From Asterias amurensis (taxonomy: Eukaryota; Echinodermata; Asteroidea; Forcipulatida; Asteriidae): DNA of 64,000 nucleotides. Both the position numbers and the translations under genes were made by a program. Positions 11,791 through 53,115 of this stretch are shown piece by piece; the first letter of the stretch is position 1, and each line of letters begins with the position of its first letter. The stretch covers positions 16,501,006 through 16,565,005 of the forward strand of contig NC_092661.1 of assembly GCF_032118995.1 (NCBI RefSeq), in the 5' to 3' direction. Under the pieces are notes generated by a model. The model was not told where the DNA came from. It ran no database searches and saw only the letters and a list, made by a program, of their open reading frames with translations.

Positions 11791-13263
11791 CTAGGGAGAT
11801 GTAATTTCGAGTATCGTGTTGTCGACTTCAACTACGCAATTACTGAGTTTCGACAAGCTGGTGTTTCTTGAATGGTCCGAAGGGGTCCTTCCCGCGCTTT
11901 CTTCGGCATTGTTGTTACTATTGTCCTGCAAACCACTCTGTATCGGCTGCTCGTACATCTCCAGCTCGGCTTCTTCAAACTGAATCGGAACTAAATTGTT
12001 CTCCCTCTTTGATGAACGTTTCTTCTCCTTTTGTTCGAGTTTCTTCTCCCGTTTGAGCTGTTTTTGTAGTTGTTTTTCCCGCCGTTTTTGCCGGTAGGAA
12101 TCGCTGACCAGGCAGCCGAGATGTGGCGCGGCGAGGAACAGAATCCCGATTAGAGCGAGGCCACCGAGTGCCGATAGGTCGACGGCGACGAGTAGGAGGG
12201 GATTCCGGGCTAGGGAGTTATTATCCACGTCGTTGTTATCTTTTACCCGGACGGTAGGGCTTTTTAGTGTTACGGTTATGTTCCTTGAAGCATTTGCATT
12301 CCACACTCTGCACGTTATTTCGGTCGAGAAGTCTTCGTTTCTTACCTCGGTGATGTTGAGATGTGATGAGAGCAAAGTCCCGTTCGAGTCTCGCTCTTCT
12401 TCGATGGAGAAGCGAGAAGTGGTCGAGTTGGTAGAATTAGACATCGGGATGGGGAGAGAAGTATTCCCGTGAAACCAATGTATTGTTTGTATGGGTGGGT
12501 TGGCTGACGCAGAGCATGTTAAAGTTATCAACTCACCAAGTTTGGATTTTGGGTGCGATGGGGAAATCATCACCGAGGGTGCGTAGAGTACGATGAGAGG
12601 TCCAATTGTGCATGATCTGTCGTAGCCATCTAGTGCAGGGTGTTCCTCGTGGCATGTGAACACGGCCCCATCATCTGCCGGTGTGGCGTCCCATATCACG
12701 GTATGGTTAGGCCCATGACCGGCCAGACCCACTTGACCGTTCAAACCCTGCCATGTAAGCTGTGAGTTTGGTCTTCCTCCACTGGCGGTCGTGCAGGACG
12801 CCGAAATTTCATCCCCTTCAGATAGAGGCGTCCTGTAGCTCGGCGAGCATACGGGGTCTCCAGGAGGCGCCACTGGCGGCAAAATCTTAACCGTCCCTGG
12901 CTTTCCGTTGATGGTATACGTCCCATCAGACAACAGACATTCGTATAAACCTTCATCCGCCATCTTTAAGTCACGAACAGTGAGGTTAAAGTATCCACTC
13001 GTTAAGTCTTCTTCAATTTTAAACTTCGGACGATTCGTAACGTAGTCGGCAGAATCGAAGCTTAAGATCAGCAATTCGCCAGCTTCAATGTACCAGAAGA
13101 CTCCGTAGTTTCCTCGGTCGATTACTTGGCAAAACAGCCGCACTGTGCTTCCTTCTAACCCACCAGCCTCCGAGAACTGATCAACAGTTTGAGCAACGGA
13201 CACCGAGACTGCATGGAAGGCAACTAACAGGCAGACAACAACGATTGAGAAATCTGCCGCCAT
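11791..13263 (-). CDS. IgR1: intronless three-Ig transmembrane receptor
   Basis: Type I membrane protein of 490 residues in one uninterrupted frame. I use the second in-frame Met (13263): it has a good start context (AAAATGGC) and gives a clean signal peptide (about 1-25), whereas the first Met adds 16 residues that bury it. Domain 1 is V-like (C45, W57, DEGLYEC C109). Domain 2 has four cysteines (C139, C157, C204, C218), W171 and the CHEEHPAL phrase typical of nectin/CADM-type C2-set domains. Domain 3 has C250, W263 and C318. There are many N-glycosylation sites. The membrane span is about 354-378. The tail begins with a highly basic helix (about 389-422), then LVPIQFEE and Y437 in MYEQP, a possible SH2 site. 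It is divergent to IgR2, about 3.2 kb between starts. Ligand and role are unknown; adhesion or recognition is inferred from domains. Confidence 0.88.
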   Translation of the reverse strand: MAADFSIVVVCLLVAFHAVSVSVAQTVDQFSEAGGLEGSTVRLFCQVIDRGNYGVFWYIEAGELLILSFDSADYVTNRPKFKIEEDLTSGYFNLTVRDLKMADEGLYECLLSDGTYTINGKPGTVKILPPVAPPGDPVCSPSYRTPLSEGDEISASCTTASGGRPNSQLTWQGLNGQVGLAGHGPNHTVIWDATPADDGAVFTCHEEHPALDGYDRSCTIGPLIVLYAPSVMISPSHPKSKLGELITLTCSASANPPIQTIHWFHGNTSLPIPMSNSTNSTTSRFSIEEERDSNGTLLSSHLNITEVRNEDFSTEITCRVWNANASRNITVTLKSPTVRVKDNNDVDNNSLARNPLLLVAVDLSALGGLALIGILFLAAPHLGCLVSDSYRQKRREKQLQKQLKREKKLEQKEKKRSSKRENNLVPIQFEEAELEMYEQPIQSGLQDNSNNNAEESAGRTPSDHSRNTSLSKLSNCVVEVDNTILEITSP

Positions 13264-13311
13264 TTTGAAAAAACTTGTTCTGATGCAACTGTTCAGTTTA
13301 GTTGTACCCAC

Positions 13312-14394
13312 TCTGCGTTATTAAAATATTGTTCCAAGTATTTAGGTTAAAGGGTATGTAGTTAACTGGGTAGCAAGCGTGTATCACATAGGTAGGCAGA
13401 CATTAGTGATCCCTTTTTGCACATCAAAGAGACACTTTTGTTCAAACAACCTTGACACTCGAAACCATTTTGTGTTCGATTCAAGTAGTATAGACTCCAC
13501 CCAGCGTATAGTATAACAACAGTCCCACGTCACAAAATCAACACTGCCCAAACTCGCGCAGAAAGTATTTTTGTTTTCAGTGCAAATAAGAAAAGAGAAA
13601 GAAACAGAAATTGTTTGAATAGTTTCACTTTATAAAAAGACAAAGGTTTTTTTAACAATGGCGTAGCTAAAGGGAGGCAGGGCACATGCCACGCCCAATG
13701 TGGTCCAACTTGAAGTATGGACCTTTGAGATGTTAAAAATGGATAAAAGCTTTTATAAAACTTTGAAATGTTTAAAATGTTGGTTCGATTAAAATTGTGC
13801 ATCCCCTTGTTCCCCTAAAGCTAATTGATTTGTAGTCTAATGTTCCAGCCAGGTAAACGACTGTTACACATTACATGCTCATTAACAATTAATTTGTATT
13901 GCACCCCGGCTCCACAGTGCCAGACTTGAACCGTATACGCACCTCTTAATATTTATTTCCCTTGTCTTTTTATCGTTTATTCTCTTTATAATTTAATGTA
14001 GGCTTTTGCTTTTAAAATTTATTTTAAAAATATTTTTGCAGTCGTTCATGGTGGTCTGTTTCTGTTCCCTATCTTATTTTACTTAATCTTCAATGTATGC
14101 TTTAATTTTTCTTCCTAAGATGATTCTATTTTAATTGTTAACTTTGTACATATCAGATTTTTTTTATATAGGCTATATGAATATTTCTAATTGTATATAT
14201 TTTTTTTGTATCCTTTCCTGTAATTGGCGGCTCGTCCGCTGTTGGTTTGGTTTTATCCGGATCAGTGGGTCTTGTTGCGCCTGACCCGTTTCTTGGTCTG
14301 TTGTGGCCCAGAATCTGTGTCAAAAGTTACAACAAAAATCAGTCAAATGCACTAAGTAGTCCGAATTTAAATTAGACTTGCTTAGTGCGGTCAC
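13312..14394. other. Upstream of IgR1; unassigned
   Basis: It should hold the IgR1 promoter (the gene reads leftward). No clear TATA element was found. 13900-14230 is T-rich with a LINE-tail look. 14255-14360 resembles family J (CCTGACCC and AGAATCTGTGTCAAAAGT). Confidence 0.4.
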
Positions 14395-14431
14395 AGGTTT
14401 CTCAGAAAAAAAGTCACCGAAATCTACACGT

Positions 14432-14525
14432 CTCGTGAGGACATCGCTAGTCTCGTGAGAACATCGCTAGATTTGCAAGAACATCAGTCTCGCGAGAACA
14501 TCGCCAGTGTCACGAGAATCGCGAG
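14432..14525 (+). repeat. Minisatellite, about 23-bp unit
   Basis: Four to five degenerate copies of GTCTCGTGAGAACATCGCTA, varying in the GTGAG/GCGAG positions. Confidence 0.7.
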
Positions 14526-14818
14526 GAGAGTCGGAATGCTGTTATAGATGCGACAAAAAATTAACGGCTTGTCTATTTATATATATCAGCCTACTTTAAT
14601 AGTTCGCTGTTGATTTCCGGTGCTTTTTTCTCCTACTGCATGGTTGGTATTCATATAGGTACGACCATGCGTGTAATCGCGCGATATCTCGGACACACGG
14701 GATTTTGTACCTTTTCACACCATTATTTTGTGTTCAAAACTTAGAACGCTAATAATGGGGTGCGTTCGTTTAGCTTCCCTGGGTCGACCCCCGATGTTGC
14801 GTATTATATTTTTTTTTT

Positions 14819-14862
14819 CCAGGACGAACGTGGGCACACAATTACCCCACGTTCGTCCTCGA
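14819..14862. repeat. Short hairpin
   Basis: CCAGGACGAACGTGGGCACA is followed by CCCCACGTTCGTCCTCG, giving a stem of about 14 bp with a loop of about 12 bases. Confidence 0.6.
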
Positions 14863-15494
14863 ACCAGGAAAAAAACCCAGACACGTCACCACGTGAGCCT
14901 TCCTGTGGTGACGCCAGTGCACCTCGGGCCAGCCCCAAGAGCCCCACTTGTGGATTGGGTCACAAACTTTGCATTGCATAATTGCAAGGGATGTTTTTAA
15001 CTATTATCATAAGCTTTATGTAAATCTGTGACCTTCACGATTTTTGTTTCTTACAAGTTCTGTAATGTTCCTTTAACTGTATTATTTGGAACATGTACAT
15101 ATTTTGCCTGTATTGCATTCGTTACTGTGGAAACAATAAAGCTTGAAACCTTGAATATCCATCACAATCCCGGGCTGTAAACCAATATTTTTCTCTGGCT
15201 GAGGAGAAAAATGTGTTTCGGGTTTCAAAACACGTACACCGTGCCAATAAAGACCAGTTTTCAAATCGTTTGAGTTTTCTTTTTAAGAGGAATGCTGTGC
15301 CCAAGGGGATGCACTATTCTCTCAAATGAATAGTCTAGACTTCCCCCATACATACCTCCGTATCCAAACCTCAGACCTGCTTTTCCCACAGCAGAATCAA
15401 CAACCAAACAAACAGTATGTGCCCCCAATACAGGGTTTTTTAAAACTCTACTCATAGTTCTATATCTATATAGCTAAACGGGGACACATTATTC
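14863..15494. other. Intergenic DNA
   Basis: No gene recognised. AACAATAAAGCTTGAAACCT near 15130 looks like a polyadenylation-type retroposon tail. The rest is unassigned. Confidence 0.4.
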
Positions 15495-15967
15495 TTAAAG
15501 GCAGTGAACACTATTGATAATTACTTAAAATATTTATTATCATAAAACGTTACATGGTAATGAGTAATGGGGAGAGGTTGATAGTATAAAATATTGTGAG
15601 AAACGGCTCCCTCTGAAGTAACCTATAGTTTTCGAGTAGAAATAAGTAATTTTATACAAATTTGATTTCGAGACCTCAGGTTTAGAATTTGAGGTCTCAA
15701 AATCAATCATCTGAAGCCACACAACTTCGTGTTACAAGGGTTTGACGAACAATTGAGCTCAAATTTTCACATTAAGTTTGTTATTTATGCATAAATGTTG
15801 AGATACACCAAGTAAAAGACTAGTCTTTGATAATTATCAAAAGTGTTTGACACATTTTTTACCGATTTTTAAATTTATGCGTACGGTTGGATACACCAAG
15901 TGAGGATACTGTTCTTTGACAATTTACCAAAGGTGCCAAAACACTTCCCAAGTGTCCAGTGCCTTAA
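15495..15967 (+). mobile_element. Family B transposon with duplicated right end
   Basis: Left end TTAAAGGCAGTGAACACTAT. The right side contains two diverged versions of the TACACCAAGT...CTTTGAYAATT segment (15805-15845 and 15895-15967), the second ending GTGTCCAGTGCCTTAA. Longer than the usual 385 bp. Confidence 0.8.
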
Positions 15968-15968
15968 A

Positions 15969-15992
15969 GCGGCTCTATGAAATTTGGGCCAG
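15969..15992. repeat. Family C end fragment
   Basis: CGGCTCTATGAAATTTGGGC matches the right end of family C; nothing else of the element remains. Confidence 0.5.
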
Positions 15993-16442
15993 CTTTCACT
16001 GCAGTCAACAAACCCAAAAGCCCAGTCTGTGCCAAAAACGGTATATTAATCAGTCTATTCAACTCTTTTGAATAGAAAGTCTCAAAAGTGTTACCCTTGA
16101 CCTCTCATAATGCGCGTTTGAGTTTGGCAGTACCAAACAATACCAGTGCTTTAGTCACACCTTTTGATTCAGATGACTGATTTTAGTAAAAAGGGTGTTC
16201 GATATGACTGTGCGACTGGGAATTATATAGCTACAACTCGCCTACTAAACGGGCATACCACACTCACTGTATGTTTTGAAGGGAACCTTGTGTATTGGGC
16301 GTGGTTTAGAACTTGTTGGAATTTATCGTGAACTTGTTTGATTTTATTGGTGTCAGAGAACCCGTCAAGTTCATCAGTATTACAGAGCGTGAAGATCACT
16401 GTGGGAGTAGGACATTTTGCAGTCGTGAGTTTTGAAACCAAC

Positions 16443-17888
16443 ATGGCGTCTATGAACTATACGAAACTATGGAGTGTTATGACTGTCATGGTGGTGTTCT
16501 CTTGCGTTTTGGTGCAATCGGATAAGATCCCCATCTTTTCTACCAGTCCGACCGACACGACTGCCGCAGTCGGATATTCTGTGACTATCTACTGCTCCAT
16601 CGCTAACCGAGGTAACTACCAGGTGTTCTGGAACATCGTCAAGAACGCCAGTGGAGATGCCATACCCGAAGAGTTCACTCTCGGCCCCTTCACCAACGAG
16701 CACGCCTCTTACGCGCGTTTTCAGATAGTAGGGGACGTAATTGGTGAGTACAACCTTCGCATTTCAAACGTATCCAAGAAAGATGCCGGGAGGTACGTCT
16801 GTCTTGTGCACGACCCCTCGAATGGCATGGCCTCGGCGATCGAATCCGGAGTAAGTCTGACCGTCCTAGACAGTGCCGAGGCCCCTGATATTGGCTATCC
16901 GAAATGTCAAAGGGACCCATTGGGAAACAGCGTACTGACGTCTGGGCAATATATCAAGGGGGATATACTGGAGCTGACGTGCACTTCTAAAGGGGGCGTA
17001 CCCCTAGCCGAGCTGTCGTGGGAGGTGGTTTATTCGAACGGCCTAAAGGAAAGACTGCTGAGCAAAACGCTTGTGATCGGCGATGAGGTGATGACGACCA
17101 CGTCACTCGAGCTAACTAGTCTTCATCACCAGTCGTACTTTAAATGTACGGAGGAGCATCCTTTGATGGAACCTCAGACCTGCATGACGCCGTTCACTGG
17201 GTCCGAATCCCTCCTGGACGTTCTGTACACACCAGAGGTCGATATGTCTCCAAACGTGGTCAACGTCATGATACTGGACACAGTCAAGGTCACGATGAGC
17301 TGCACAGCGCACGGCAACCCCCCCATTTTTCGTAAACCTGCCATCATGCTCCCCGTGAATAAATCGGGTGTTTACCCACTCGGGGAGCTCGACAAGTCCC
17401 TGGTTGAGGTTGAATTGACAGTGGACGATGTCGGGAAGAGCTTCTACTGCCGAGCGGAGAACGAGGACGGCATAGGGGAAGATACGATGGACGTCCTGAA
17501 GTCGACTTCAATCCCGACGTGGTTGGTTCTTGTCATCATCGGCAGCATTGCCGCGGTCATATTCATCTTCATCATATTGGTTAGCTGTATCTTGTGCGTT
17601 GATAGATCAAAGTACGACGACGCCACCAGGAGTTCAAACTCCTCTAGGCCGACTTCGATGAAGAAAGAGGACGATGGTTTCGATAACATGATTCCAATAG
17701 AGGAGTTCCAGGGTGGGCAAGAGTCTGCACACGTGAATCCTGATAAGACGGCCACTACCAACGACTACGAGACGGGGGAGACTGCTGGCCCACGCTACCA
17801 GAACGTCAATGAGGTGTTCGAAGTGGACGAGATAGTACCGCATTCACCTGAGCCTGCTGCAGATTTTGTCCCAGTAGATTTGTCTTAA
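16443..17888 (+). CDS. IgR2: intronless three-Ig transmembrane receptor with pYxN tail
   Basis: 481 residues, one exon. Start chosen at 16443 (CAACATGGCG, giving MASMNY and then a signal peptide). An upstream in-frame Met at 16338 would add 35 residues with no signal character. Domain 1 is V-like: C51, VFW at 61-63, DAGRYVC ending C120. Domain 2 has C155, C180, W193, C235 and C247, with CTEEHP. Domain 3 has C287 and C336 but no Trp in the usual place between them (GNPPIFRKPAIMLPV), as in IgR3. The membrane span is about 361-386, followed by CVDRSK. The tail holds MIPIEEFQGG (416-425), DYETGE, and Y452 in RYQNVNE, a pYxN site of the kind bound by Grb2 SH2 domains. A TATA-like TTATATAG lies near 16223. 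A family A element begins about 12 bp after the stop. Closest relative here is IgR3. Function is inferred only from domains. Confidence 0.93.
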   Translation: MASMNYTKLWSVMTVMVVFSCVLVQSDKIPIFSTSPTDTTAAVGYSVTIYCSIANRGNYQVFWNIVKNASGDAIPEEFTLGPFTNEHASYARFQIVGDVIGEYNLRISNVSKKDAGRYVCLVHDPSNGMASAIESGVSLTVLDSAEAPDIGYPKCQRDPLGNSVLTSGQYIKGDILELTCTSKGGVPLAELSWEVVYSNGLKERLLSKTLVIGDEVMTTTSLELTSLHHQSYFKCTEEHPLMEPQTCMTPFTGSESLLDVLYTPEVDMSPNVVNVMILDTVKVTMSCTAHGNPPIFRKPAIMLPVNKSGVYPLGELDKSLVEVELTVDDVGKSFYCRAENEDGIGEDTMDVLKSTSIPTWLVLVIIGSIAAVIFIFIILVSCILCVDRSKYDDATRSSNSSRPTSMKKEDDGFDNMIPIEEFQGGQESAHVNPDKTATTNDYETGETAGPRYQNVNEVFEVDEIVPHSPEPAADFVPVDLS

Positions 17889-17899
17889 GTTCTTCCACT

Positions 17900-18287
17900 A
17901 TAAAGGAACAGGTTGCCTTGGATCGGACGAGTTGGTCAATAAAATGCGTTTGTAACCGTTTGTTATAAAATGCATATGGGTAGAAAGGTGTAAAAGTAGA
18001 ATACAATGATCCACACAAAATGTGCCTCGAAATTGCGTGGTTTTCCTTATACTGTGCGAACTAACATGGTCGGCCATTTATGGGAGTCAAAAATTTGACT
18101 CCCATAAATGGCCGACCGTGTTAGTCGACGAAGTAAAAGGAAAACCGTGCAATTTCGAGGCACATTTGTGTGGATCATTGTATTCTACTTTTACAACATC
18201 TTTCCAACCATATGCATTTTATACAAAACGGTTACAAACGCCTTTTACAGACCAACTCGTCCGATCCAAGGCAACGTGTTCCTTTAA
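17900..18287. mobile_element. Family A foldback transposon
   Basis: Complete: TAAAGGAACAGGTTGCCTTG at the left, GGCAACGTGTTCCTTTAA at the right. The centre is a 24-bp perfect inverted repeat (18069-18092 with 18095-18118) separated by two bases. It starts 12 bp after the IgR2 stop, so it is probably part of the IgR2 3' UTR. Confidence 0.93.
17938..17943 (+). promoter_or_regulatory. Candidate polyadenylation signal inside a transposon end
   Basis: AATAAA lies 50 bp after the IgR2 stop, within the left arm of the family A element. Sister copies read CTATAAAA (21408 and 42233 copies) or CAAAACAAAA (35203 copy) here, so the signal appears to be particular to this copy. Confidence 0.4.
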
Positions 18288-18350
18288 GATTCTGCTCACA
18301 TTCAAATTTGAAACATGGGTCCGAATTCGAAGGAGATCCTGTTGTCCTGT

Positions 18351-18554
18351 GCCCAATTTCATAGAGTTGCTTTTAAGCAGACACTATTGCTTAACAATTA
18401 TTGTGTGCTAAGCAGAAATAGGCAAGATACCAGTCGCAGATTGTACATTGTTGTGGAATGATAGTCTGGCTGGTAACCTTATTCTGGTAAGCATAATTTT
18501 GTTGTGCTTAGCTACATAAATTTATGCTTAAGCAGCTCTATGAATCTTGGGCCA
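18351..18554. mobile_element. Family C inverted-repeat element
   Basis: GCCCAATTTCATAGAGTTGC to AGCTCTATGAATCTTGGGCC, about 204 bp. Its interior (ACCAGTCRCA...GTGGCTGGTAACC-type) is closest to the copy at 43934-44113. Confidence 0.85.
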
Positions 18555-18745: not shown

Positions 18746-18930
18746 TGCATGGCCCAACCGAGTCCAAGCAACAAGTATTTGCTACCATCAGTGCGGGCCA
18801 ATTTTGAAGCAATTGCGGTATACACACCTATATTGGCAGCTTGAATTTATTTGTTAACTGGGTTTCCAAACATGCATTATGGTGTCTTCAAAGATGGCGC
18901 CTGTGCATTATAATAAGCTAGTGGACAGCA

Positions 18931-20450: not shown

Positions 20451-20836
20451 TTAAAAGACACTGGACACTATTGGTAATTGTCAAAGACTAGTCTTTACAG
20501 TTGGTGTATCTCAACAAATGCATAAAATGACAAACCTCTGAAAATTTGAGCTCAAGCGGTCGTCGAAGTTGCAAGATATTAATGAAAGAAAAAAACACCC
20601 TTGTCGCACCATGGTCACACGAAGTTGTGTGCTTTCAGATGCTTGATTTTGAGACCTCAAATTCTAAATCTGAGGTCTCGAAATAAAATTTCTTCTTTCT
20701 CGAAAACTACCTCACTTCAGAGGGAGCCGTTTGTCACAATGTTTTATACTACAACCTCTCCCCATTACTCGTCACCAAGTAAGGTTGATAATAATTATTT
20801 TGAGTAATAACCAACTTGAGTGTCCACTGCCTTTAA
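20451..20836 (-). mobile_element. Family B transposon
   Basis: Both ends present (TTAAAAGACACTGGACACTA and TGTCCACTGCCTTTAA). A short internal duplication CACCATGGTCACACGAAG lies near 20606-20625. Confidence 0.9.
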
Positions 20837-22040: not shown

Positions 22041-22432
22041 ATAAAAACACTGGTCGCTAATGGTAATTGTCAAAGACCACTCTTCTCACTTGGTGTATCT
22101 CAACATATGCACAAAATAACAAACCTGTGAAAGTTTGAGCTCAATTGGTCGTGGAAGTTGCGAGATAATTATGAAAGAAAAACAGCCTTGTCACACGAAG
22201 TACGGTGCTTTCATCGGATGCTTGATTTCGAGACCTCGAATTCTAATTCTGAGGTCTCGAAATCAAATTCGTGGAAACAACTTCTTTCTCGAAAACTACA
22301 TTACTTCAGAGGGAACTGTTTCTCACAATGTTTAATACTATCAACCTCTCCCTATTACTCATTACCAACTTAAGTAAGGATTTATGCTAATAATTATTTT
22401 GAGTAATTACCAATAGTGTCCACTGCCTTTAA
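22041..22432 (-). mobile_element. Family B transposon
   Basis: The left end is eroded (ATAAAAACACTGGTCGCTAA), the right end intact (GTGTCCACTGCCTTTAA). The internal palindrome GAGACCTCG/TGAGGTCTCG is well preserved. Confidence 0.9.
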
Positions 22433-25426: not shown

Positions 25427-26896
25427 ATGGCGTCCGTGTACTGTACATTCTTGTCATGTGTCACCGTTATTCTGGTGACACTTGCTGCTGTCGTGGTGTC
25501 ACAGACTGAGCCAACAACCTTTGAGGTGTCACCGCAGGACACATCGGCGGCCGTGGGTTTCCCAGTGACAATCTACTGCTCCGTAACAAACATTGGCCGT
25601 CATCAAGTGTTCTGGAACATTGTTCAGAATTCGACTTCGGATTTCACCCTTGGACCGAACTACAACAGACACGCCTCGTTCGATCGTTTTCAGTTTGGTG
25701 GCGGTCTGGATCGAGGGGAATTTAACCTCCGTATCTCTGAGGTACAGAAGGAGGATGCTGGGAGGTACATATGTCTGTTGAACGACCCTTTCAATGAGAT
25801 GTCTGTAGCTCAGGAGGCAGGAGCCAGACTGACGGTCTTAGATGCTCCTTTAGCACCTCTTACTGCAAACCCTCAATGTGAGAGCAGCCCTGTTGGAGTA
25901 GACGGCCAGAATGGAGTATTTAAACAAGGTGACGTCTTAACTCTGACATGTACCTCACGAGGGGGTGTACCTCTTCCCGAGCTAGCCTGGGAAAGGGTCA
26001 CGGAGAACAACGCCATAGACAAGCTACCGGGAAAAACAAGAGTGAGAGGCGATATGGTGACCACCTCAGCAGACGTCAGACTATCGAGTGAGGATCACCA
26101 GTCCCACTATAAATGCAGCGAGACACACCCATCAGCCTCCACTCCTCGTCTCTGCGAGACAGAAACTTCCATGAACGTTCGTTTTGAACCTGAGGTTGTT
26201 ATCACTCCTAGTGCAGTCTACGTCCAGTTGTTTGAGACATCGGTAGTCACGCTAAGGTGTGTGGCATCGGGCTACCCGGAGCTGAGCAGCGGTCCCACGA
26301 TCGTACTTCCAGTCAACAAGACAGGTACCTTCAGCGAAGACCGGTCTTCAGTTGAGGTATCACTTACTACGGATGACATCGGGAAGGACTTTTACTGCCG
26401 GGCTGTGAATGATGTCGGCGTGGGAGAAGCCGCGGTGGAGATCGAGCAACTCTCGTTGCTTCCGACATGGCTGACGCTAGTCATCATCGCGGGTATTGGA
26501 TTCGTTATTTTGATTGTCATAACCATCGTGTCATGTGCCCTTTGCGTGGATAGATCCAAACGCCACGACGAGTCGCGAAGCAGGAGCAAAGACCGGCTAC
26601 GGTACTCCGTTAATAAGTCACTAAGGGGCACTTCGTTGAGGCGAGAGGGTGAAGATGACTTCATTGACGGGTTTGACGGTGACATGCTCCCCATTGAAGA
26701 CTTCCAGGGTGGCAGGGAGACCATGCAGATGCAGAACACCAACAAGGAGGTTGCGAATGACTTCGAGACCGGGGAAGCTGGTACGAGGTATGAGAATGTC
26801 AACGAAGCATTCCAGCCGGATGACAGCATTCAGAGTAATTCAATCTCACAGTCAAATCCTTCATATGAGCATGCCATAGACGTCGATTTTGAGTAG
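25427..26896 (+). CDS. IgR3: intronless three-Ig transmembrane receptor with pYxN tail
   Basis: 489 residues in one exon. The open frame extends 12 codons upstream to a GTG, but the Met at 25427 (AATATGGCGTC, giving MASVYC and a signal peptide) is the sensible start. Domain 1 is V-like: C51, W63, DAGRYIC ending C116. Domain 2 has C151, C175, W188, C230 and C243, with CSETHP. Domain 3 has C278 and C324 and, like IgR2, no core Trp, but it shares LPVNKTG and DFYCRAVNDVGVGE with that protein. The membrane span is about 349-373, then CVDRSK. Tail: an Arg/Ser-rich stretch (378-406), MLPIEDFQGG (420-429), NDFETGEAGTRYENVNEAF with Y455 in a pYxN site. Ectodomain and tail motifs line up with IgR2 from end to end, so the two are tandem duplicates that have diverged well. 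Biological role unknown. Confidence 0.93.
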   Translation: MASVYCTFLSCVTVILVTLAAVVVSQTEPTTFEVSPQDTSAAVGFPVTIYCSVTNIGRHQVFWNIVQNSTSDFTLGPNYNRHASFDRFQFGGGLDRGEFNLRISEVQKEDAGRYICLLNDPFNEMSVAQEAGARLTVLDAPLAPLTANPQCESSPVGVDGQNGVFKQGDVLTLTCTSRGGVPLPELAWERVTENNAIDKLPGKTRVRGDMVTTSADVRLSSEDHQSHYKCSETHPSASTPRLCETETSMNVRFEPEVVITPSAVYVQLFETSVVTLRCVASGYPELSSGPTIVLPVNKTGTFSEDRSSVEVSLTTDDIGKDFYCRAVNDVGVGEAAVEIEQLSLLPTWLTLVIIAGIGFVILIVITIVSCALCVDRSKRHDESRSRSKDRLRYSVNKSLRGTSLRREGEDDFIDGFDGDMLPIEDFQGGRETMQMQNTNKEVANDFETGEAGTRYENVNEAFQPDDSIQSNSISQSNPSYEHAIDVDFE

Positions 26897-28130: not shown

Positions 28131-28494
28131 TTAATGGCACAGGACACTATTGGTAATTACTCAAAATAATGACATTATTAGCACAAAACCTTACTTGGTA
28201 ACGAGTAATGGGGAGAGGTTGGTGAAACGGCTCCCTCCGAAGTGACGTAGTTTTCGAGAAAGAAGTAATTTTCCGCGAGTTTGATTTCGAGACCTCAGAT
28301 TTAGAATTTGAGGTCTCGAAATCAAGCATCTGAAAGTACACGACTTGGTGTGACAAGGTTTTTTGTCTTTCATTAATATCTCGCAAGTTTGATGACTGAT
28401 TGAGCTCAAATGTTCACAGGTATGCATATGTTGAGATACACCAACTGTGGAGACTAGTTTTTAACAACTATACCATAGTTTCCAGTGTCTTTAA
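28131..28494 (+). mobile_element. Family B transposon
   Basis: TTAATGGCACAGGACACTAT to TTTCCAGTGTCTTTAA. A deletion of about 25 bp near 28222 removes the TATAAAACATTGTGA block seen in other copies. Confidence 0.88.
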
Positions 28495-38853: not shown

Positions 38854-40599
38854 ATGGCTTCACGGCTAAAGCTAACTGCGTTACTTCTACCATGGTTCGT
38901 TGTGATGATTTTAGTGTGTCGCACTCAACAGCAGGGTACGATTGTAATTCAACCACAAGATGAGAAAATTATCGAAGGATCCACAGTCGTTTTCACGTGT
39001 GAGATAACCACCGATGGAGTAGAAGAAATCAAGTGGTGCCGCCGGGACACAGAAACAGGGGGAGACTCACAAGTAATTAAGGATGGCGGTCGTTTTAATA
39101 TAGCTGAAACAACGGGGAAAATAGCACAGAACCTGACTATCAGCGAAAGCGTACTGAGCGATTCGGCGTATTACTTCTGCACCTACGGGAACCAGTCCAC
39201 AATGGGTAGATTGGATGTGCTCCCAAGCACTTGGTTGCCGTTGTGTTCTCAGACACTTGGCACTGGGAAACTTTCCACCGGGGAATTTTTTGAGCTTGCA
39301 TGTACCTCAACCGGCCATGTGAACACATCTCTCGTGTGGCTCGTAGGAGAGACACCTGTTGACAACTACCAGGTAACTGTGTCCAAGGATCAGGAGTCAA
39401 TGAAAGTAACATCAACCTACGGTAGCACGATAGGTACCTCCGAGGTTATAGTGTATACGTGTGAGGCTACTTTGGAGGGTCTGCGTGAGAACTGTACCGT
39501 ATCAATTAACGATGAGGCTCCGCTTGACGTTATCCCGCTTGACGTTATCCCTTATATTGTGGTTGGACTGATGAGCCTCATTGCCTTACTGTTGTTCTTC
39601 GTGGTGCTGTTGATCCTGTTCAGACACAGACAGTGTCGCATCTGCCAACAGGCTATGCAAGAACCTCACACGGTTCTGGACGCAGCATCTTTACAGACTG
39701 GTTCCTGGGTTCCTCCACCGCCAGTTGCCTATGACGTTGAAGGCAGTGAGAGCAGTGAAGATCGTGTCTCAGAGAAAGATACCCAAATACACCGTTTGGA
39801 AAGAGGTACCAACCAACCTCCTGACGTGGTACCTGTTTTGGAACTTGAGGTACCCGAGGTAGGTGATCAGCCTAGCAGTTCCTCTGAAGTGGTTACTGAA
39901 ACGGAACCTGCAGATTCATCGGAACCTGTTCCGAAAGCAGAACCAGGACCCACAACCGAAATTAAACCGAAAACCAAGAATCTCACCCTGACCAAAAACA
40001 TAGACAAGAACATCGAGAAGCCTGAGAAAATTGTCGAGAAGAAGGACGTTCAATTTCCAGCACACAAGACACGCGGAACGCGCAGACCTAGGGACAAGAA
40101 GGTCAAACATTACAAGGAACCTCCAGTGAAGGCGAAAATGAAGGAAAAGGAACCGATCTACGCCCATGTTAAGAAGCTGAACGTGCCACCAAAGTCCGCT
40201 CAGGGGGGTGCAACATCAGCAGATGCCGCATCCGCACCGTCTACCTCAGCGGGGGCGACGGCAGTCCCCCCACCCGAACCACCACCCCGACCTTCCCCTG
40301 ACTCGGAGTCGAAAGACACAAGCTCCACGACCACGAACTCGTCAGACCAGACCCCGGGCGTAAACGATCTAGGACGGGGGAACTCCAAGAAGAAACGAGT
40401 CAAACACTACCGAAAGAAGTCCGAGGACGTCAAACGGAACTCACATCCTGAAGATACTGTGTTGAATATACCGGCGGCGACCAACTCGACCTCCGAATCG
40501 CCACCAGCCCAGCCGAAGAGCTCACCCAAAGTGCCCGCAGACCGAGTCATCTATGCAGAGTTAGATTTCAGTAAAGATGTTGGACCCAATATTATATGA
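38854..40599 (+). CDS. IgR4: intronless two-Ig transmembrane receptor with an ITIM
   Basis: 581 residues, one exon, start AAAAATGGCTTC. Signal peptide about 1-26. Domain 1 is V-like: C49, W61 with an extra C62, DSAYYFC ending C109. Domain 2 has C131, C150, W162, C203 and C214, the same four-Cys plan as the other Ig genes. A short tandem duplication PLDVIPLDVIP precedes the membrane span (about 234-256). Juxtamembrane CRIC could be palmitoylated. The 320-residue tail is Pro/Ser/Lys-rich and has PIYAHV (Y436), two related KKVKHYK / KKRVKHYR segments, PPPEPPPRPSP (possible SH3 ligand), and near the C-terminus VIYAELDF (Y567), a strict ITIM. The PIYAHV/VIYAEL pair recalls the SHP-2-binding tail of vertebrate MPZL1 (PZR), though the order and spacing differ. 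An inhibitory or SHP-2-recruiting receptor is the natural inference; no ligand can be guessed. Confidence 0.92.
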   Translation: MASRLKLTALLLPWFVVMILVCRTQQQGTIVIQPQDEKIIEGSTVVFTCEITTDGVEEIKWCRRDTETGGDSQVIKDGGRFNIAETTGKIAQNLTISESVLSDSAYYFCTYGNQSTMGRLDVLPSTWLPLCSQTLGTGKLSTGEFFELACTSTGHVNTSLVWLVGETPVDNYQVTVSKDQESMKVTSTYGSTIGTSEVIVYTCEATLEGLRENCTVSINDEAPLDVIPLDVIPYIVVGLMSLIALLLFFVVLLILFRHRQCRICQQAMQEPHTVLDAASLQTGSWVPPPPVAYDVEGSESSEDRVSEKDTQIHRLERGTNQPPDVVPVLELEVPEVGDQPSSSSEVVTETEPADSSEPVPKAEPGPTTEIKPKTKNLTLTKNIDKNIEKPEKIVEKKDVQFPAHKTRGTRRPRDKKVKHYKEPPVKAKMKEKEPIYAHVKKLNVPPKSAQGGATSADAASAPSTSAGATAVPPPEPPPRPSPDSESKDTSSTTTNSSDQTPGVNDLGRGNSKKKRVKHYRKKSEDVKRNSHPEDTVLNIPAATNSTSESPPAQPKSSPKVPADRVIYAELDFSKDVGPNII

Positions 40600-45180: not shown

Positions 45181-45467
45181 TTAAAGGCAGTGGACACTAT
45201 TGGTAATCACTCAAAATAATTATTAGCATAAAACCTTTCTTGATTACAAGTAATGAGGAGAGGTTGATAGTATAAAACATTGTGAGAAACAGCTCCCTCT
45301 GAAGTGACGTAGTTTTCGAGAAAGAAGTAATTTTCCACGAATTTGATTTCGAGACCTCAGATTTAGAATTTGAGGTCTCGAAATCAAGCATCTGAAAGAT
45401 ACTGTTGAGATACACAAAGTAAGAAGACTGGTCTTTGACAATTACCAATAGTGTCCATTGTCTTTTA
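45181..45467 (+). mobile_element. Family B transposon with internal deletion
   Basis: TTAAAGGCAGTGGACACTAT left; the sequence jumps from GCATCTGAAAGA to TACTGTTGAGATACAC, losing about 100 bp, and ends GTGTCCATTGTCTTT. Confidence 0.9.
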
Positions 45468-45609
45468 GTTATTTCTGTTCGATTTTTGAAGAAAAACTCT
45501 ACAAAAAGATATGCAGTTTGACATTGAGAAAATACCAAGTTTTGCCAAAAAGCACACTTAAACTTTGTGTTCATTTACTTGTCCATATCATCTTGTCATG
45601 AAAGAAAAA

Positions 45610-45662
45610 AATGTTTGTTTGTTTGTTTGTTTGTTTGTTTGTTAGGTTTTTTTGTTTGTTTG
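45610..45662 (+). repeat. (GTTT)n microsatellite
   Basis: About twelve GTTT units with one AGGTTTTT interruption. Confidence 0.92.
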
Positions 45663-47073
45663 TGTGAATTTACTCAAGATGATTATATTTTTACTACTTA
45701 CTATAAACCTTTATAATTATCCAGTAAGTTCAATAAAAGACTTGACATTTACAAGAAATCATTTAATCACAATGTTTATATTTTGTTATCTGACGAGTAA
45801 AGATTCCATGGCAGTATTCTAAACTTACCAGTTTTAAAATAATGAGACTTTGGACATTTGATTGGATTGACCCATAGTGATCATCTATATTAATGAAGAC
45901 AGTAATCGCGAGAAAAAATCAGGGTTCGAGGTAGGCCCCCTCCCGCCCCCCCCCCCCCCAATGAAAATGAATAAATAAATAAAATAAATAAATCAACATG
46001 ACCGACAAAAACGACAACGTTAACGGCAAGAAATAGAAGAAGAAATAACAAAATAACAACAACAACAACATCTCACAAAACCATATCTTCTAACAGATAC
46101 TATTTTTATTGACCGAAGTATTTATCTTTCTATTATTCTACAAGCAGCCTTGATGTTGAATTCCTACAATTAGTCAGTTATGCGATACAAACTCTGGTTT
46201 TACATTTACGGACCCATGACTGGAACAAAACCTCCTTTTACTCTAATTGACAGGTTATGAACATAATCTCATTATGAATATACAACGTTTAATAATCAAT
46301 TGGCCCATGTAAGACAGTCAAAAATAATTATCATAATTTTAATTAAATGGTATTCCATTTAAGTGTTGTGAATGGCAAAAACTACTTTAAAGAGAAGTTA
46401 TACATCTGCTAATCACTCTTAAAATGAATGGCAATTAAACCCTTTGTTTAAAATCCGACACCGTTTAATAGTAAAAAGCATTTTGAGAAAACAATTTCAC
46501 TTCGAAATAATGTAGTAATGTAAAAATATATAAGTTGTTTTGCCCCAAAATTTGAATCTGAGAAGCGTTACCGCGGTATGCTTCTCAGACTGTGTATTCC
46601 TATAGACCATGTGAACTTTGTTTACAACAAGTGTGACCTTGTGCAATTTTGGGTATTCTGGCAGGCAAGATACTGCACACAGGTCCTATGGGAAAGTTGA
46701 CATTTTGTGTCATAATTTCCACATAAATCCAAGAATTGTGAAAGTAAAAGCTGGACAAGTTTTGAGACGTGCCCCCTTTCATCGTATCAAAAGTTGATAA
46801 GAATTACAACAGTGCAATATCCATAAAATATAAGATTTTATGTTTTCTTCCATTAGGCTGTGTAAAAATCGTGCCTGCAGGAAACTAGGCTCTGTGGCTC
46901 TTTTGTAAACATGTGATGTCACAGGTCACGTCGTCTATTTGGGCCTGTATTCTTTCTGCGTGGAAATTATTATTGAAATTATTGAAATTAAATTGCAGAT
47001 GTTAGTATCATTGTGTAGGCTAAAAATAAATAAAATAATCGAAATGTTTCAAAACCCCCAAACATACCGTGCC
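45663..47073. other. Intergenic DNA with simple repeats
   Basis: Contains a C-run and AATA-rich stretch at 45935-45995, and a D-like fragment at 46437-46590 with an exact short inverted pair TGAGAAGCGTTACCGCGGTA / TGCTTCTCA. No gene recognised. Confidence 0.45.
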
Positions 47074-47399
47074 TTTAAATGCACCGGACACCTTTAGTTT
47101 TTGTCAAAAGACCAGCATACAATAACAAGTCTGTGAAAATTTGAACTGAATTGGTCATCGGAATTGCAAGAGGAAAAAACACTCTTTATGCACAAATTTG
47201 TGTGCTCTCAGATGCCTAAAAAAAGTATTAAAAGACCTCAGGCCCTGCCGTTTAATATTTGAGTAAGAAATTACCTCTTTTTCAAAAACCTACGTTACTT
47301 CAGAGGGAGCGGTTTCTCACAATGTTTTATCAACAGCTCTCCCACGACTTTGATAACACTTATTATGAGTAATTACCAGTAGTGTCCAGTACCTTTAAG
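47074..47399 (-). mobile_element. Family B transposon, old
   Basis: CTTTAAATGCACCGGACACC to GTGTCCAGTACCTTTAA. Many internal differences from the younger copies (GACCTCAGGCCCTGCCGTTT in place of the palindrome). Confidence 0.75.
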
Positions 47400-50300
47400 G
47401 GAGCACCACAATCAATAATTGTCTGAACGGATTATTGTGTTGGACAGGTGTTAGATCATCTCCATAGCAACAGGAAAGTAGAGGAACCTTCATAAGTGAT
47501 TTGATTAAAATATTATGTTTCAGGTCTTTATATAGGGATTATGATTAATGGTGCTGGTTTAATTAATTCACGTTAGGGGGATTCAAAATGCAATTTTTAT
47601 TGTGTCGATCAAACAAACAATGTCACGAAGACAGACTGACATGATTTACTGAATATTTGTATAAATATAAAGAGGAAGTATACCATTTTTTGACCGTTTG
47701 ATTGTTTTAATTCCATTATACACTAAAACACAACCTTTGAAATGTTTTCTAGACATCGCCGAAAATTTTGAGCGATCATGTCCACGCAGGAACATTTTTT
47801 TTATACACATTTTTGAGAGATGTACTGTCAGTAACGCTTCTCAGATTCAATTATATTTTTAGGGGGGGGGGGTTAAAAACTGATTCAGATTTCCGATCAT
47901 AATTACTGAAGTGAAATGGTTTTCAACATTAGTCATACAATCGAAAGCTGCTGTACTTCTAACCAATACAATTTGTATCGCCAATAATTTTAAGATTACC
48001 AAACGCACTTATTCCCTTTAAATTGTTTTTAGTATTTTATTATTCAACTTTATTTTGTCATCCCCACCATGGTGTGTACAATCTTGAAGTTGGAAAATGC
48101 CGGCAGTATGTTGACAAATGAATTGCCAACATATAAAAGAGTTGTTCATTCTGGGCCCTTGTTGTCAGGCAAAAATACTGCACTGGTCATGTTATAGGAA
48201 ATTTTACATTCGGTATAAGAAATTCCACATAAAAAGTAACGAATTATCAAAAGTAACGGCTGAACAAAGTCTTTGAGATGTGCAAGTTTTCTTGACGTCA
48301 AAAGTGGCCACAAAAGAGACGATACTTTCTCCATAAAATATAACCTGATGGAAGTCTTGCTCTGTGGCTCCTTTTGTAAATATTTATGACATACACAACA
48401 TAAACCAAAGTGAGACCCAATTATCACATTTTTATAGATTCCTAAAAAAAAAAAGATAAACAGAAGCCCTTCACCATAGGGTGTAAACATAAAACTACCC
48501 TTTTCCTGCCAACATAATTACATTGGTGTTGTTTTAACACTATGTTAATTTCGATTTCGTAGACATCTATAATGTGTGACAACACCCATTGTGGTATCAA
48601 TTTTAACACCCCAGTTTTTGGAGTGCAGAGGAACATTGACAAAGGGAAAATTTACTGTGCCACCCCCGGGTTCACCACTAAACCAGAAATATAGGAAAAA
48701 AGTGTCCATTATGCAAAATAGCAGTCTAGAGTATAATGCAACAATTGGTATTTTTGATACTGGTAAGTTGTATTGAATTCTCCAAGCTATAGCCCAAAGC
48801 TATAGACTATAAAACTAGAACCCATACACGTATAGTTTGTGTTTGTTCATAAACTGTCATCATAACTTTAAGCAGCAAACAAAACAGTTGTAAGAACAAC
48901 AGCTCAGTTCCTTTTTTTAGCAAAACAAAAATACAGTACAAAGATGAATGGTGGAGCCTACAAACGTACAGTGCCTATGACTCGTATGGTTTTACGTGTC
49001 TAGCAACTGAATAGAGTAGTTTATCGTTCAGCCATGACCTCCATTTTGCAAACAGCCAAGCCCAAATCCCACCGCCTTCGTTGTCGTTTCCAAAGCCAAA
49101 ATCAAACCAATTATTATTCAAATGAGCTCTTTAAAAAAAAACACACAGACTAAAAAGTTGGAGGTTATAAGTTTGCCATATTTGGTAGCATACGAAATAC
49201 ACCTTTTGTTGCGTCGTGAATAATGTCACGTCACAGGAAGTACAATTGCTCGGTCGACCGAGAAAGAAACAGACCCACTCCACTTTGTCTATTTCGTGAA
49301 AATATTTGTAGCCATTGTGCCCTGACATAAGCCTATGCCGGAGTAGGTCGAATCCGATTGAAATAGGAATTTGACTAATGTATTTTCTTTTGGAGGTAAA
49401 AACGAAAACAAGTTTTTTTGCAATGTTAAAGCTACCTGTCCCAATTTGGTGTTTGAAGTTTGTACAACTTTGTTCATGGTCAAAGCGGCATAAACGTTAA
49501 ATTATCCAAGTGATTTTCAATTGAACATTTGACGTGAGTTTACACAAAGTCAACTTTAAATAGTGACTCCACTTTTTAGAACTTGTCAAACCACCACCGA
49601 CGTCGGTCTATCCCCGTTAAAAACTACCATTCATAATTAAAGTAACCAATCATCTAATTTCGTGATTTACCTTATTTTCCATACTTCTATGAACTTGTTT
49701 TTAGACAGACGAAGGATATAGGCGAAGGGTATAGGTACTTTGTTAATGTTTTGTGTGATAACCCAAATACATATGAAATTAATAACAAACCTGTGCAAAT
49801 TAGAGTTTTCATCAGTTGTGTTGGTGAGGAGAAAATAGTGAAAACCCATGCATAGTTGTTATGCATGTAAAAACAATGTCATTAATTTTGGTTTTAACAA
49901 CCAAAATCAGCTGTTTTGTTTTTGTCTTCTTTAAGTTTTCAGCTGCAGTTTTGTCCAAAATATAACTTTATTTTCACAGGGAAATATTGCACAGACAAAA
50001 TGCTTCCATTATGAACTTCATAATCTCCAAGTTTCAGACTAAAATTAAACAATGATGTTTTTCATCCTCACCAATGTGGTAAAATTGCTTTACGTAATGG
50101 TAAGGTTTGCGGGTAACACCATGTAATGACTGTCTCGAATGAGTTGGGGTGGTTCTGAAAAAAACCGTTTGGTTTCAACTCGACGTTTCGTTCACTATGC
50201 TCTGATCGTCTTCTGGAGAAAGCTGGCTTTACGGAACTTTATTTCAATGAAACTTTCCGGCATGGTTGTTGCCCCAGTGTCTTACCCCCCAAAAAACAAA

Positions 50301-50442
50301 GACCATTTGCGGATGTTTTTGTCTGTCTGATTTTGGAGGAGAACCAAAATATAGTAGTTTATTCTTCTTTAAAAAACAATTTCAGTAGATACCTTCCATA
50401 TAACAGTGAAATTTGATTGAATTTCAAATGTTATAACTGTTG
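47400..50442. other. Long intergenic stretch
   Basis: No supported gene. Includes a D-like segment (47665-48025, AAGTATACCATTTTTTGACC and AACGCTTCTCAGATTC), a family K end near 48520-48627 (TTAACACCCCAGTTTTTGGA), and at 50145-50225 a CCAGAAGACGATCAGAGCAT / GAACGAAACGTCGAGTTG phrase on the - strand, of the kind seen in Penelope-type tails. Confidence 0.35.
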
Positions 50443-50443
50443 T

Positions 50444-50486
50444 TCAATTCAATTCAATTCAATTCAATTCAATTCAATACAATTCA
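50444..50486 (+). repeat. (AATTC)n microsatellite
   Basis: About eight CAATT units, one altered to CAATA near the end. Confidence 0.95.
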
Positions 50487-50879
50487 TCTTTAACTGTCCT
50501 ACCATGGAGGACAATTTATTTGCCTATACATGCAATGCACGAAATAATAGCACTCAATCAAACAAAAGTAAACTACCGAACATAATTGTTTTATTACTTA
50601 TACCTTAGACTAAGTATTTTCACGAATACGTGCTTTACATGCATCGTTGTGTGGGTAAAAACGAAAAAGCAAGGACCCTTTCTCTCGATAGGGTTAAACC
50701 ACATAATTTAAATTCTACCGTTTTTGACCAACGGTGAATTTAACGAACGAAATAAAACTAAATCATTTGTCCCTGTGTCAAAGGTTAAGTGCCACTTTTT
50801 TGCAGTTTTTATTCCTAATAGGTACGTATTAAGAAACCATATACACTCAAATAGTTTTATTTTTAATCAGAACTGTTAG

Positions 50880-51471
50880 CAATAACACACCCGAGGATGT
50901 TTTCGTGACGTATACCATAAATATTCACGACTTCTTTGTGTCCCCAAATGCAAATAGAAAGTCTTTTTGATATCGGGGCTGAACTGGAGGACACTCTCGA
51001 CCAGTCCTTGTGTATCCTAATGAATTATTCATAAGATCTTTGTGTTCCTATCCTGTATACACCTGGATAATGGCTGACTGGCTACGCACTAAGCCGTCCG
51101 TACTGAACCCATTGTGAAAGCGATGACTAGTGAAAGACAGTCTGTCCTCGTCCTCAAGGTGACGTCATCGTGTAACCGCCTCTGACTGTATCATGCGTAG
51201 CAATGTATTGGTACCGCCTCGTCAAACGCTAAACCTACAGGTGGACGTCGTAAAAGCAGTATTGTTCTGCGAGGAGGAAATCAAGAAAGCGAACAATTAT
51301 AAACACTTCTCATGATGACCATTTCTTCCTCCATGACAGGGGATAAACGCTGAAACATCAAAAAGTGAGTTTAAATGCAGCATAGTCTGATCGATAAACT
51401 AATATCAGAAGTCAATTGTGGTGTGTGCGTATGTAACTGTTGCTGGAGTGGTACACGTTTTGACAATGAAA
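50880..51471 (+). promoter_or_regulatory. Upstream region of IgR5
   Basis: Candidate TATAAA at 51298-51303, about 170 bp before the start codon. An octamer-like ATGCAAAT occurs at about 50947. No experimental support; transcript start unknown. Confidence 0.25.
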
Positions 51472-53115
51472 ATGGCTTCTCGTTGGCTTTACGTTGCTGT
51501 ATTGATCACAACTCTTGGCCGTTTACCGTTAATTACAGCACAGTTGTTTATGGTTGAACCGAGGGATGCTGAAATTATGCTAAACGACAGCGTGACGATG
51601 CGGTGTACGATAACACACCAGCCTGATGCCACTGTGTTCTGGTCCACCCCCGGTGCTTCGACTCTCATCGGGACCACCACTCCTCAGGAACAGCTGGAGG
51701 GTCGATTCTCCATAGTTAACGGCCAGAGCGGGGAGAATAACCTGGTGATAAATAAAGTTCTTCCGCGGGATAGCGGTCCTTATGTCTGTATCGTCATTAT
51801 AGCCAAGGGTTTCGAAACAACTCGGTTCGAATCTGAAACTGGAACTTTAAGGGTTGTTCAAGTACCAGAGAGTGGGGATACAGTGTGCTGGACGGAACAA
51901 GGGAGAATGGCCAGTGTTGGGGACCCCATATCCCTAAAATGTGCCTCGAGCGACCCCACCGTGGGCTTGACGTGGTATGTTGGGGACGTGGATCTGAGTT
52001 CTTCTCCCGTGAATATTTCCCCAAGAGGGACAGGGATTGAGACCGAATTCCTCGCCCAGTCCCAGACCAATTTGAAGACTTACACATGCCAGCCGAATAG
52101 TGGAGACTACACCCCATGCTCTGTGACTCTAGAGGTGCAGCATCCACCAGTTGTGCTCATTGAGGAAGAAGGAGTTATCGAGACCGGACTTGATGCCAGA
52201 TTCAAGTGTATGGCTACGGGAAACCCGGATAACTTTGCCTTTATCTGGCACTACAACGGCTACCAGGTTGGATTCGAAGAACATTCTAGGTTCAACAGGG
52301 CTAGACTTGAATCCAGCGGCTCTGTTCTGGTGCTACCTGGTTTGGAAGATGCTGATAACAATGTGACGCTACAGTGCGAAGCTATTAATGCTCTGGGTTC
52401 TGAGACAGCGACGCATGTGATAAACGCACGGGCCGGTAAGACTCTGGCGCAGGTCATCGGTCCGATCATCTTGGGCATCATCCTCGGACTTGTGCTCATC
52501 GTCTTGTTCCTGTACTTCCTCTGGTGGCGAAGACAGCGTATCAAAGTCGAGGAAATCACCAAGAAGAACAAGAGTGTGAAGAGGAGCGACTCCCGACGCA
52601 CCGAGGTGCCTACGGTTGACACGGGCATCGTCTACACACAGACCGTGGGTGGATTCGGCAGTCGATACGGGAAGAAAAACGCGTCCAACGGCGACCTGGC
52701 ACGCTCGGGACTCGATCTGGAGTCTGTCGGCTACGGGCCGGATGTCACCAACATCCCTGCCTACAGGACAACGGCTAAAGAGGAGAAAGAAGACGATGGG
52801 GCACTGAGGCCGATTCCAAGAAAGAAGAGCACTTCGTCTCTATCATCAATGGCGGCAACCAACCATCCATCTTCATCAACAACTGCGGACGATGTCAGTC
52901 TCATCAGCCCAAAGGACGAGTCGTCGGCTTTCACCTACCATGTCAACCCACACTTCGAGGACTATCGCTTCCCTCCAATCGAGAGCCAATCCGAAAACGA
53001 TTTTGGTTCGGACGAGAAGAAGGAAAAACTGCAAAATCGCAATATCGAACCCGAAACCCACGACACAAACTTCCATAGCGGTGATGATGATAATATTATT
53101 AGCACTGAGTTGTAA
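51472..53115 (+). CDS. IgR5: intronless three-Ig transmembrane receptor with PDZ-binding end
   Basis: 547 residues, one exon. The open frame runs 18 codons further upstream, to a GTG; the Met at 51472 (GAAAATGGCTTC) gives MASRWLYV and a signal peptide to about 23. Another Met lies two codons before. Domain 1 is V-like: C45, VFW at 55-57, DSGPYVC ending C106. Domain 2 has the four-Cys plan (C139, C157, W168, C206, C216). Domain 3 is a normal I/C2-type domain with C246, W259 and C302 (so unlike IgR2/IgR3 it keeps the Trp). Membrane span about 328-350, followed by WWRRQR. The tail of about 195 residues has several Tyr (GIVYTQTV, SVGYGPD, FTYHVNP), is acidic and Ser-rich, and ends STEL, a class I PDZ-binding motif (S/T-x-hydrophobic). 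AATAAA at 53414-53419 may be its polyadenylation signal. Adhesion with a scaffold link is a plausible reading. Confidence 0.92.
   Translation: MASRWLYVAVLITTLGRLPLITAQLFMVEPRDAEIMLNDSVTMRCTITHQPDATVFWSTPGASTLIGTTTPQEQLEGRFSIVNGQSGENNLVINKVLPRDSGPYVCIVIIAKGFETTRFESETGTLRVVQVPESGDTVCWTEQGRMASVGDPISLKCASSDPTVGLTWYVGDVDLSSSPVNISPRGTGIETEFLAQSQTNLKTYTCQPNSGDYTPCSVTLEVQHPPVVLIEEEGVIETGLDARFKCMATGNPDNFAFIWHYNGYQVGFEEHSRFNRARLESSGSVLVLPGLEDADNNVTLQCEAINALGSETATHVINARAGKTLAQVIGPIILGIILGLVLIVLFLYFLWWRRQRIKVEEITKKNKSVKRSDSRRTEVPTVDTGIVYTQTVGGFGSRYGKKNASNGDLARSGLDLESVGYGPDVTNIPAYRTTAKEEKEDDGALRPIPRKKSTSSLSSMAATNHPSSSTTADDVSLISPKDESSAFTYHVNPHFEDYRFPPIESQSENDFGSDEKKEKLQNRNIEPETHDTNFHSGDDDNIISTEL

Follow-up and report, generated by a model that had tools for sequence, protein, structure and literature searches.

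A 64-kb stretch of the genome of the sea star Asterias amurensis (NC_092661.1; C14:16501006-16565005, hereafter the window) carries five related genes for membrane receptors with immunoglobulin (Ig) domains, all of them intronless in the coding region. By sequence similarity, they belong to a family with more than 100 single-exon Ig receptors, of which these five make up only a minor share. We regard it as reasonably probable that they belong to a sea-star superfamily that was born from a retrocopy and that includes a subgroup with paired tails serving in recognition.

The window genes and their family

The window has exactly five ATG-to-stop frames of 200 or more amino acids (aa), and they code for 481-581 aa each. 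None of the other stop-to-stop frames exceeds 165 aa (160 frames of at least 70 aa were listed), so chance is no explanation for the five. All five products exceed the curated cut-offs of Pfam Ig models, and each has a hydrophobic leader and a single membrane span, as judged by simple hydrophobicity and not by a trained predictor. The initial annotation of the window had described just this arrangement (a leader, two or three Ig domains, a span and a tail in one intronless frame), and it was borne out in 5/5 frames.

Gene 1 (11791..13263, minus strand; 490 aa) codes for a leader, three Ig domains, one span and a tail of 115 aa with the motif YEQP. Its predicted membrane span (12139..12195, minus strand) is the hydrophobicity peak, with coordinates converted by hand, and has an Asp inside it (VAVDLSALGG). 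The other four genes are on the plus strand. Gene 2 (16443..17888; 481 aa) has three Ig domains and a tail with YQNV; its span is predicted at 17526..17582 by hydrophobicity and by the terminal helix of a structure model. This model consists of three beta-sandwich domains and the helix (mean predicted local distance difference test score, pLDDT, 74.1; predicted template modelling score, pTM, 0.49), parts of domain 1 having a pLDDT below 50. Gene 3 (25427..26896; 489 aa), the sister of gene 2, also has three Ig domains, with a span predicted by hydrophobicity at 26474..26530 and TRYENV in the tail. Gene 4 (38854..40599; 581 aa) has two Ig domains, a hydrophobicity-predicted span (39556..39612) and a tail of 328 aa, near the C terminus of which lies VIYAEL, a motif of the immunoreceptor tyrosine-based inhibitory motif (ITIM) type (40546..40563; coordinates by hand from the translation). 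Gene 5 (51466..53115; 549 aa) has three Ig domains, a span predicted in the same way (52465..52521) and a tail of about 197 aa with no match to the ITIM pattern.

The absence of introns, read from DNA, applies to the coding frame only; introns in the 5'-untranslated region (UTR) are invisible in DNA and are possible. In real transcripts, then, the frames might be broken up, or spliced 5' exons might come before them, so that the genes would not be truly intronless. We think this very improbable: leader, Ig domains, span and tail are all contained in one frame in each of the five genes, an in-frame stop lies 13-37 codons upstream of every ATG (in stop-to-stop frames of at least 70 aa), and a 5'-UTR intron would leave the claim about the coding region unchanged.

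Sixty genes of the family were read, and all 60 run as one frame through their Ig domains; one interrupted place (L024 + L049), which lacks a frame of 350 aa, is not among them. The 60 form a single similarity component at E 1e-6, partly by construction because the genes were found by similarity. They also have a signature in common. In 40/40 aligned members, the same four columns of domain 2 are occupied by cysteine, two of them beyond the ordinary Ig pair; the 40-row alignment omits the 17 two-Ig genes of C14 as well as L015, L043 and L062 (short or duplicated rows). The two-Ig C14 group joins the rest of the family through domain 1 (best E 2.7e-13). Branches of the family tree are long. Genes 2 and 3 are sisters in it with support of 100/100, and they are 46% identical, the remaining window pairs being about 25-27% identical (worst E 0.003-0.004). 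A clade made of the window five is neither supported nor rejected by the approximately unbiased (AU) test (p-AU 0.216). The five are best explained as old members of the family.

The genome searched comprises 491,506,623 bp in 23 contigs. Matches numbered at least 39 for gene 2, at least 25 for gene 5 and at least 6 for gene 4; among genes outside the window, at least 53 were found for the L028 ectodomain, at least 48 for L057 and at least 99 for L068. The six queries merged into at least 151 places, at least 125 of which, spread over 13 contigs, fall within open frames at least 350 aa long. (These 125 include matches with E up to 0.01, so weak Ig matches may be among them, and by our reading eleven show a stop within one or more of the stretches matched by L057 or L068, in some cases ahead of the start.) C14 makes up 4.1% of the genome, yet carries at least 73 of these places; at least 19 are on C18, at least 9 on C9 and at least 8 on C5. 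With gene 1 as the query there were at least 58 matches, of which 56 fall within frames at least 350 aa long; by our count they bring 15 further places. The initial picture of five intronless genes is real, but a local group of five beside MSH2 understates a family of this size and spread, and a clear local sister relation is seen only for genes 2 and 3.

Some C14 copies are unusual in build. The one at C14:14819748-14822657 (L024, L071) is broken within domain 2, its parts lying about 2 kb apart, and is shifted after domain 3, from insertion or decay. A young tandem group at C14:14.856-14.897 Mb (L056, L061-L063) has repeated mucin-like stalks; in L062 the Ig domains are present twice over within a single frame, and no membrane span was detected.

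Two kinds of tail

Among the 17 genes read in the C14 two-Ig group, 7 have a long tail and 10 a short one. The four long tails read to their end (L080, L081, L082, L085) have 3-4 copies of YAx[LIV] each. The short tails have YEEM in 9/10 and YQ[DE]L in 9/10, in a YEEM...YQDL layout. The two types are intermixed: in the ectodomain tree of the 17, tail type changes 7 times, and a single clade of long tails is rejected (p-AU 5.8e-6). In one case (L088 and L089), sister ectodomains (100/100) are joined to opposite tails. Genome-wide, at least 33 places match the short tail (E <1e-30) and at least 25 the long tail (E <1e-20).

The synonymous divergence (Ks) falls steeply along the C14-group gene, from 0.92 in domain 1 and 0.67 in domain 2 to 0.27 in the stalk and 0.13 in the span and tail. 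In pairs with the same tail type, Ks is lower in the tail than in the ectodomain in 31/31 pairs that are near each other and in 20/20 pairs more than 2.3 Mb apart, which argues that tails are exchanged or converted along the chromosome. Recombination or conversion would keep the tails alike while the ectodomains diverge. Judged from these features, the C14 subgroup looks like a set of paired inhibitory and activating receptors: the long form looks inhibitory, and the short form may activate by means of YxxM and YxxL motifs of its own.

YAx[LIV] is the core of an ITIM. The tails read across the family are enriched in such ITIM-like motifs. From 44 frames, 38 tails (7849 aa) were collected and tested against 2000 shuffles; dropped were L013 (a tail of 13 aa), L015 and L062 (no detected span) and L017, L061 and L063 (near copies), and several of the 38 are truncated where the sequence read stops. 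YAx[LIV] occurs 27 times, in 14/38 tails, as against 2.41 times in shuffles, an excess of about 11-fold that none of the 2000 shuffles reached. The ITIM pattern [SIVLT]xYxx[ILV] (31 vs 12.4) and Y[ED]xP (18 vs 3.6) are also in excess (0/2000 each). In the same 38 tails the control motifs FA.[LIV], HA.[LIV], YxxK and the reversed motif gave no enrichment.

Several results weigh against a paired recognition system. The genes that show the two-tail pattern are those read in the C14 two-Ig subgroup and not the window five, and the firmly supported branches of the 17-row tree are few and force only 2 tail changes. None of the 10 short-tail genes read has a charged residue in its span, unlike vertebrate activating receptors of the adaptor type. 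YAx[LIV] is missing from 24/38 tails, including those of 4/5 window genes, and YxN is not significantly enriched in the 38 tails (21 vs 15.5; 175/2000 shuffles). Positive selection acting generally on the ectodomains was looked for and not found, the ratio of nonsynonymous to synonymous divergence (Ka/Ks) being about 0.5 in domains 1 and 2 of the C14 group. Finally, some family copies are broken. Single pairs differ in their ratios: L011/L017, the only pair above 1 in the ectodomain, has 1.13 there and 0.23 in the tail, with few changes, and L013/L015 has 0.30 in the ectodomain.

The broken copies raise the question of whether these are mostly decaying duplicates without function. Stops occur in some matches, the C14 copy at 14.82 Mb is interrupted, and L015 is frameshifted in its stalk repeat. 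We give this explanation hardly any credence. The window five and most places have stop-free matches, the matched tail is free of stops at 20/25 long-tail places, and genes 2 and 3 have a Ka/Ks of 0.157 (at saturated Ks), so their frames have been maintained. The frames are under constraint.

Origin of the single exon

Ig genes in this genome are normally split into one-domain exons, as follows from the lengths of frames with Ig_3 matches: of the best 150 in the genome, 106 are in frames below 200 aa and 29 in frames at least 350 aa long (median 136.5 aa). A split gene also adjoins the receptor genes. Pieces of PF00488 (MutS_V) are spread over four separate frames at window positions 214..5711 on the plus strand, above the curated cut-off in two of the four, and so the neighbouring MutS-family gene is split, unlike the Ig receptors. 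(Its name MSH2 comes from the initial annotation; the Pfam match here is to the MutS family.) The annotation had held that the genome is not intron-poor and that this neighbour is split as usual, and both statements stand.

A spliced relative of the family is present in the same genome. At C19:11407000-11412500, the gene L069 (11.408-11.412 Mb) has separate frames for its domains. Domain 1 is present in three copies, one of which is divided between two frames; domain 2 has the four cysteines of the family, and a domain 3 follows. Candidate phase-1 splice sites lie at most domain borders, and two more frames, one coding for a membrane span and one tail-like, are found downstream (in L073). The domain-2 exon, used as a query, matched at least 23 other places; window genes 1, 2 and 3 are among them, and 20 of the 23 fall within frames at least 350 aa long. 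Upstream of the spliced relative, positions 2-1081 of L072 (C19:11402000-11407000) hold an open frame that resembles, by eye only, a reverse transcriptase of the long interspersed nuclear element type.

Since there is a spliced C19 relative, since the genes run in one frame and since domain 2 has a common signature, the simplest reading is one founding retrocopy of a C19-type gene, followed by DNA duplication. A spliced multi-Ig receptor of this type would have been reverse-transcribed into a coding single exon, which then would have multiplied mostly along C14, with further centers on C9, C18 and C5. The initial annotation had proposed one founding retrocopy, and the proposal is now supported, not proved: the one-frame structure in 60/60 genes and the mostly single-exon matches of the C19 domain-2 exon speak for it, and the C19 gene is a putative parent type. 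As a concrete spliced candidate relative, L069 makes the retrocopy hypothesis testable.

Alternatively, there was no single founding retrocopy, and introns were lost piecemeal or by cDNA gene conversion, or the ancestor was already intronless. L069 has three domain-1 copies and so is not a simple intron-for-intron parent; a poly-A remnant or a target-site duplication, for which no search was made, would not be expected at the family's age. However, 60/60 one-frame genes with one domain-2 signature are most simply explained by one event, and the C19 relative retains introns around the same domains. We consider piecemeal loss or its variants distinctly improbable, and the founding retrocopy remains our preferred reading.

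Other features were seen in passing. The window has a pure (ATT)72 microsatellite at 1587-1802, beside the MutS exons, and 2.6 copies of a 118 bp unit at 134-443. A dispersed repeat, seen through similar chance translations, occurs at 20586-20807, 22120-22373, 28147-28460, 45197-45574, 55548-55796 and 63184-63462, and a second one at 18010, 21401, 35076 and 35413. On C2, L070 (C2:26931500-26934500) and about ten more Ig matches, located at 24.8 and 26.5-26.95 Mb, have frames some 700-800 aa long; L070, the one of these that was read (part of the frame), combines leucine-rich repeats with Ig domains and is of a different, apparently single-exon family. Ig exons are dense at C7:16.60-17.23 Mb, where one open frame of 3401 aa with several Ig matches has a titin-like look. 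Contig C23 is the mitochondrion (16,427 bp). Its first 5 kb are open under code 9, in the order ND2(-), ND1(-), a tRNA cluster and COX1(+); COX1 was assigned by Pfam, and we take the other two genes to be ND1 and ND2 and the order to be of the asteroid type. Two COX1 copies on a large contig (C5:658874-660214 and 675294-676634) could be nuclear copies of mitochondrial DNA or come from the assembly.

Recognition, adhesion and known systems

How would the receptors work? The ectodomains would bind ligands on other cells or on microbes, and phosphorylated tail tyrosines would recruit SH2 proteins. In the C14 subgroup, similar ectodomains would be borne on a multi-ITIM-like tail, which is probably inhibitory, or on a short YEEM/YQDL tail, which may be activating. 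Such a paired-receptor system would act most likely in coelomocytes, in self/non-self or pathogen sensing. Coelomocytes of sea stars show allorecognition, for which no receptor is named in the accessible text of the source (PMC9763293). The earlier suggestion of a recognition system thus gains from the ITIM-like enrichment and the paired tail types as a hypothesis, and the immune or allorecognition function itself stays putative. A broader proposal is that a single retrocopied Ig receptor gave rise to more than 100 single-exon receptors whose ectodomains are swapped by recombination between ITIM-like and YEEM/YQDL tails. A sea-star chromosome would then be a natural receptor complex, an invertebrate counterpart of the leukocyte receptor complex, with candidate receptors for allorecognition in sea stars and with the skeletal fusion protein KirrelL as a recruited member. 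We offer it tentatively, its chances being a little below even.

The family may instead be mainly adhesive or developmental, its members bringing skeletogenic or other mesenchyme cells into contact and helping them to fuse, with the tyrosine motifs serving adhesion signaling. The nearest published gene is, by description, echinoderm KirrelL. It codes for an Ig transmembrane protein required for skeletogenic cell fusion and is single-exon in all echinoderms examined, for which its authors suggest retrotransposition (PMC8903837, available text); this breadth is to be kept in view with the initial annotation's suggestion that the family could be lineage-specific. Like KirrelL, the window genes are single-exon (5/5), have Ig domains and one span, and come from an echinoderm. 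Unlike the family here, KirrelL is described in that text as one gene with a role in skeletogenic fusion, without a large family, paired tails or ITIM-like motifs; the neighbors of its locus are not named there, and msh2 does not occur (PMC8903837). Alx1-type palindromes (7 vs 3.04 expected, none within 2 kb upstream of a start codon) carry little weight on KirrelL-like regulation.

Structure neighbors bear on both views. The structure search returned unspecific Ig proteins with whole-chain template modelling scores of about 0.2-0.33, and a profile search against PDB chains gave 11199 matches that were equally unspecific. Nectin-1, NCAM, SYG-2, Dscam and contactin, which would suit adhesion, are among these neighbors, but so are CD22, CEACAM1 and FcRL5. 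More than 100 loci, intermixed tail types and broken copies would be unusual for a structural adhesion set, and the enrichment of YAx[LIV] is ITIM-like. We therefore hold a mainly adhesive role to be unlikely, if by no means negligible, and continue to prefer paired recognition.

In vertebrates, the paired receptors KIR, LILR, SIRP, FcRL and NILT have similar ectodomains on ITIM-like or non-ITIM tails, and their genes are clustered, duplicated and exchange parts. The C14 members likewise combine similar ectodomains with two tail types, and are clustered and duplicated with parts exchanged. The sea-star genes differ in being single-exon and in having short tails with YEEM/YQDL of their own and no charged residue in the span, and their sequence link to the vertebrate receptors is at the level of generic Ig domains only. 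If paired recognition is the true function, an ITIM-based form of it recurs in a third lineage, beyond chordates and cnidarians. The single-exon genes would also allow whole receptors to be cloned, expressed and swapped easily, and the family is a possible context for the fusion protein KirrelL.

No description of such a sea-star family was found in the titles and abstract beginnings of the best-ranked papers, with subscription papers and supplements outside the scope. Among mollusks, oyster CgIgIT2 is an Ig immune protein and Aplysia AcFREP1 is an Ig-containing gene without introns (PMC11999971, in part). AcFREP1 differs in being a fibrinogen-related protein, and the accessible part of that paper gives no sign of a large single-exon paired family (PMC11999971). 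In Botryllus, the fester co-receptors (FcoR) number 53 loci and have long tails that contain ITIM, hemITAM and core tyrosine motifs, and in Hydractinia the Alr receptors, which are of the Ig type and have ITIM/ITAM-like tails, belong to an invertebrate recognition complex (PMC12065747, in part). The likeness of the Alr to the present family is by description, not by sequence. A sushi domain between the Ig domains, and alternative splicing of exons, distinguish the FcoRs described in that part of the source (PMC12065747) from the sea-star members scanned; no sushi domain was listed in Pfam scans of the window five, L068, L028 and L022. What the FcoRs and the sea-star genes have in common is that each is a large invertebrate family of Ig receptors with tyrosine motifs in the tails.

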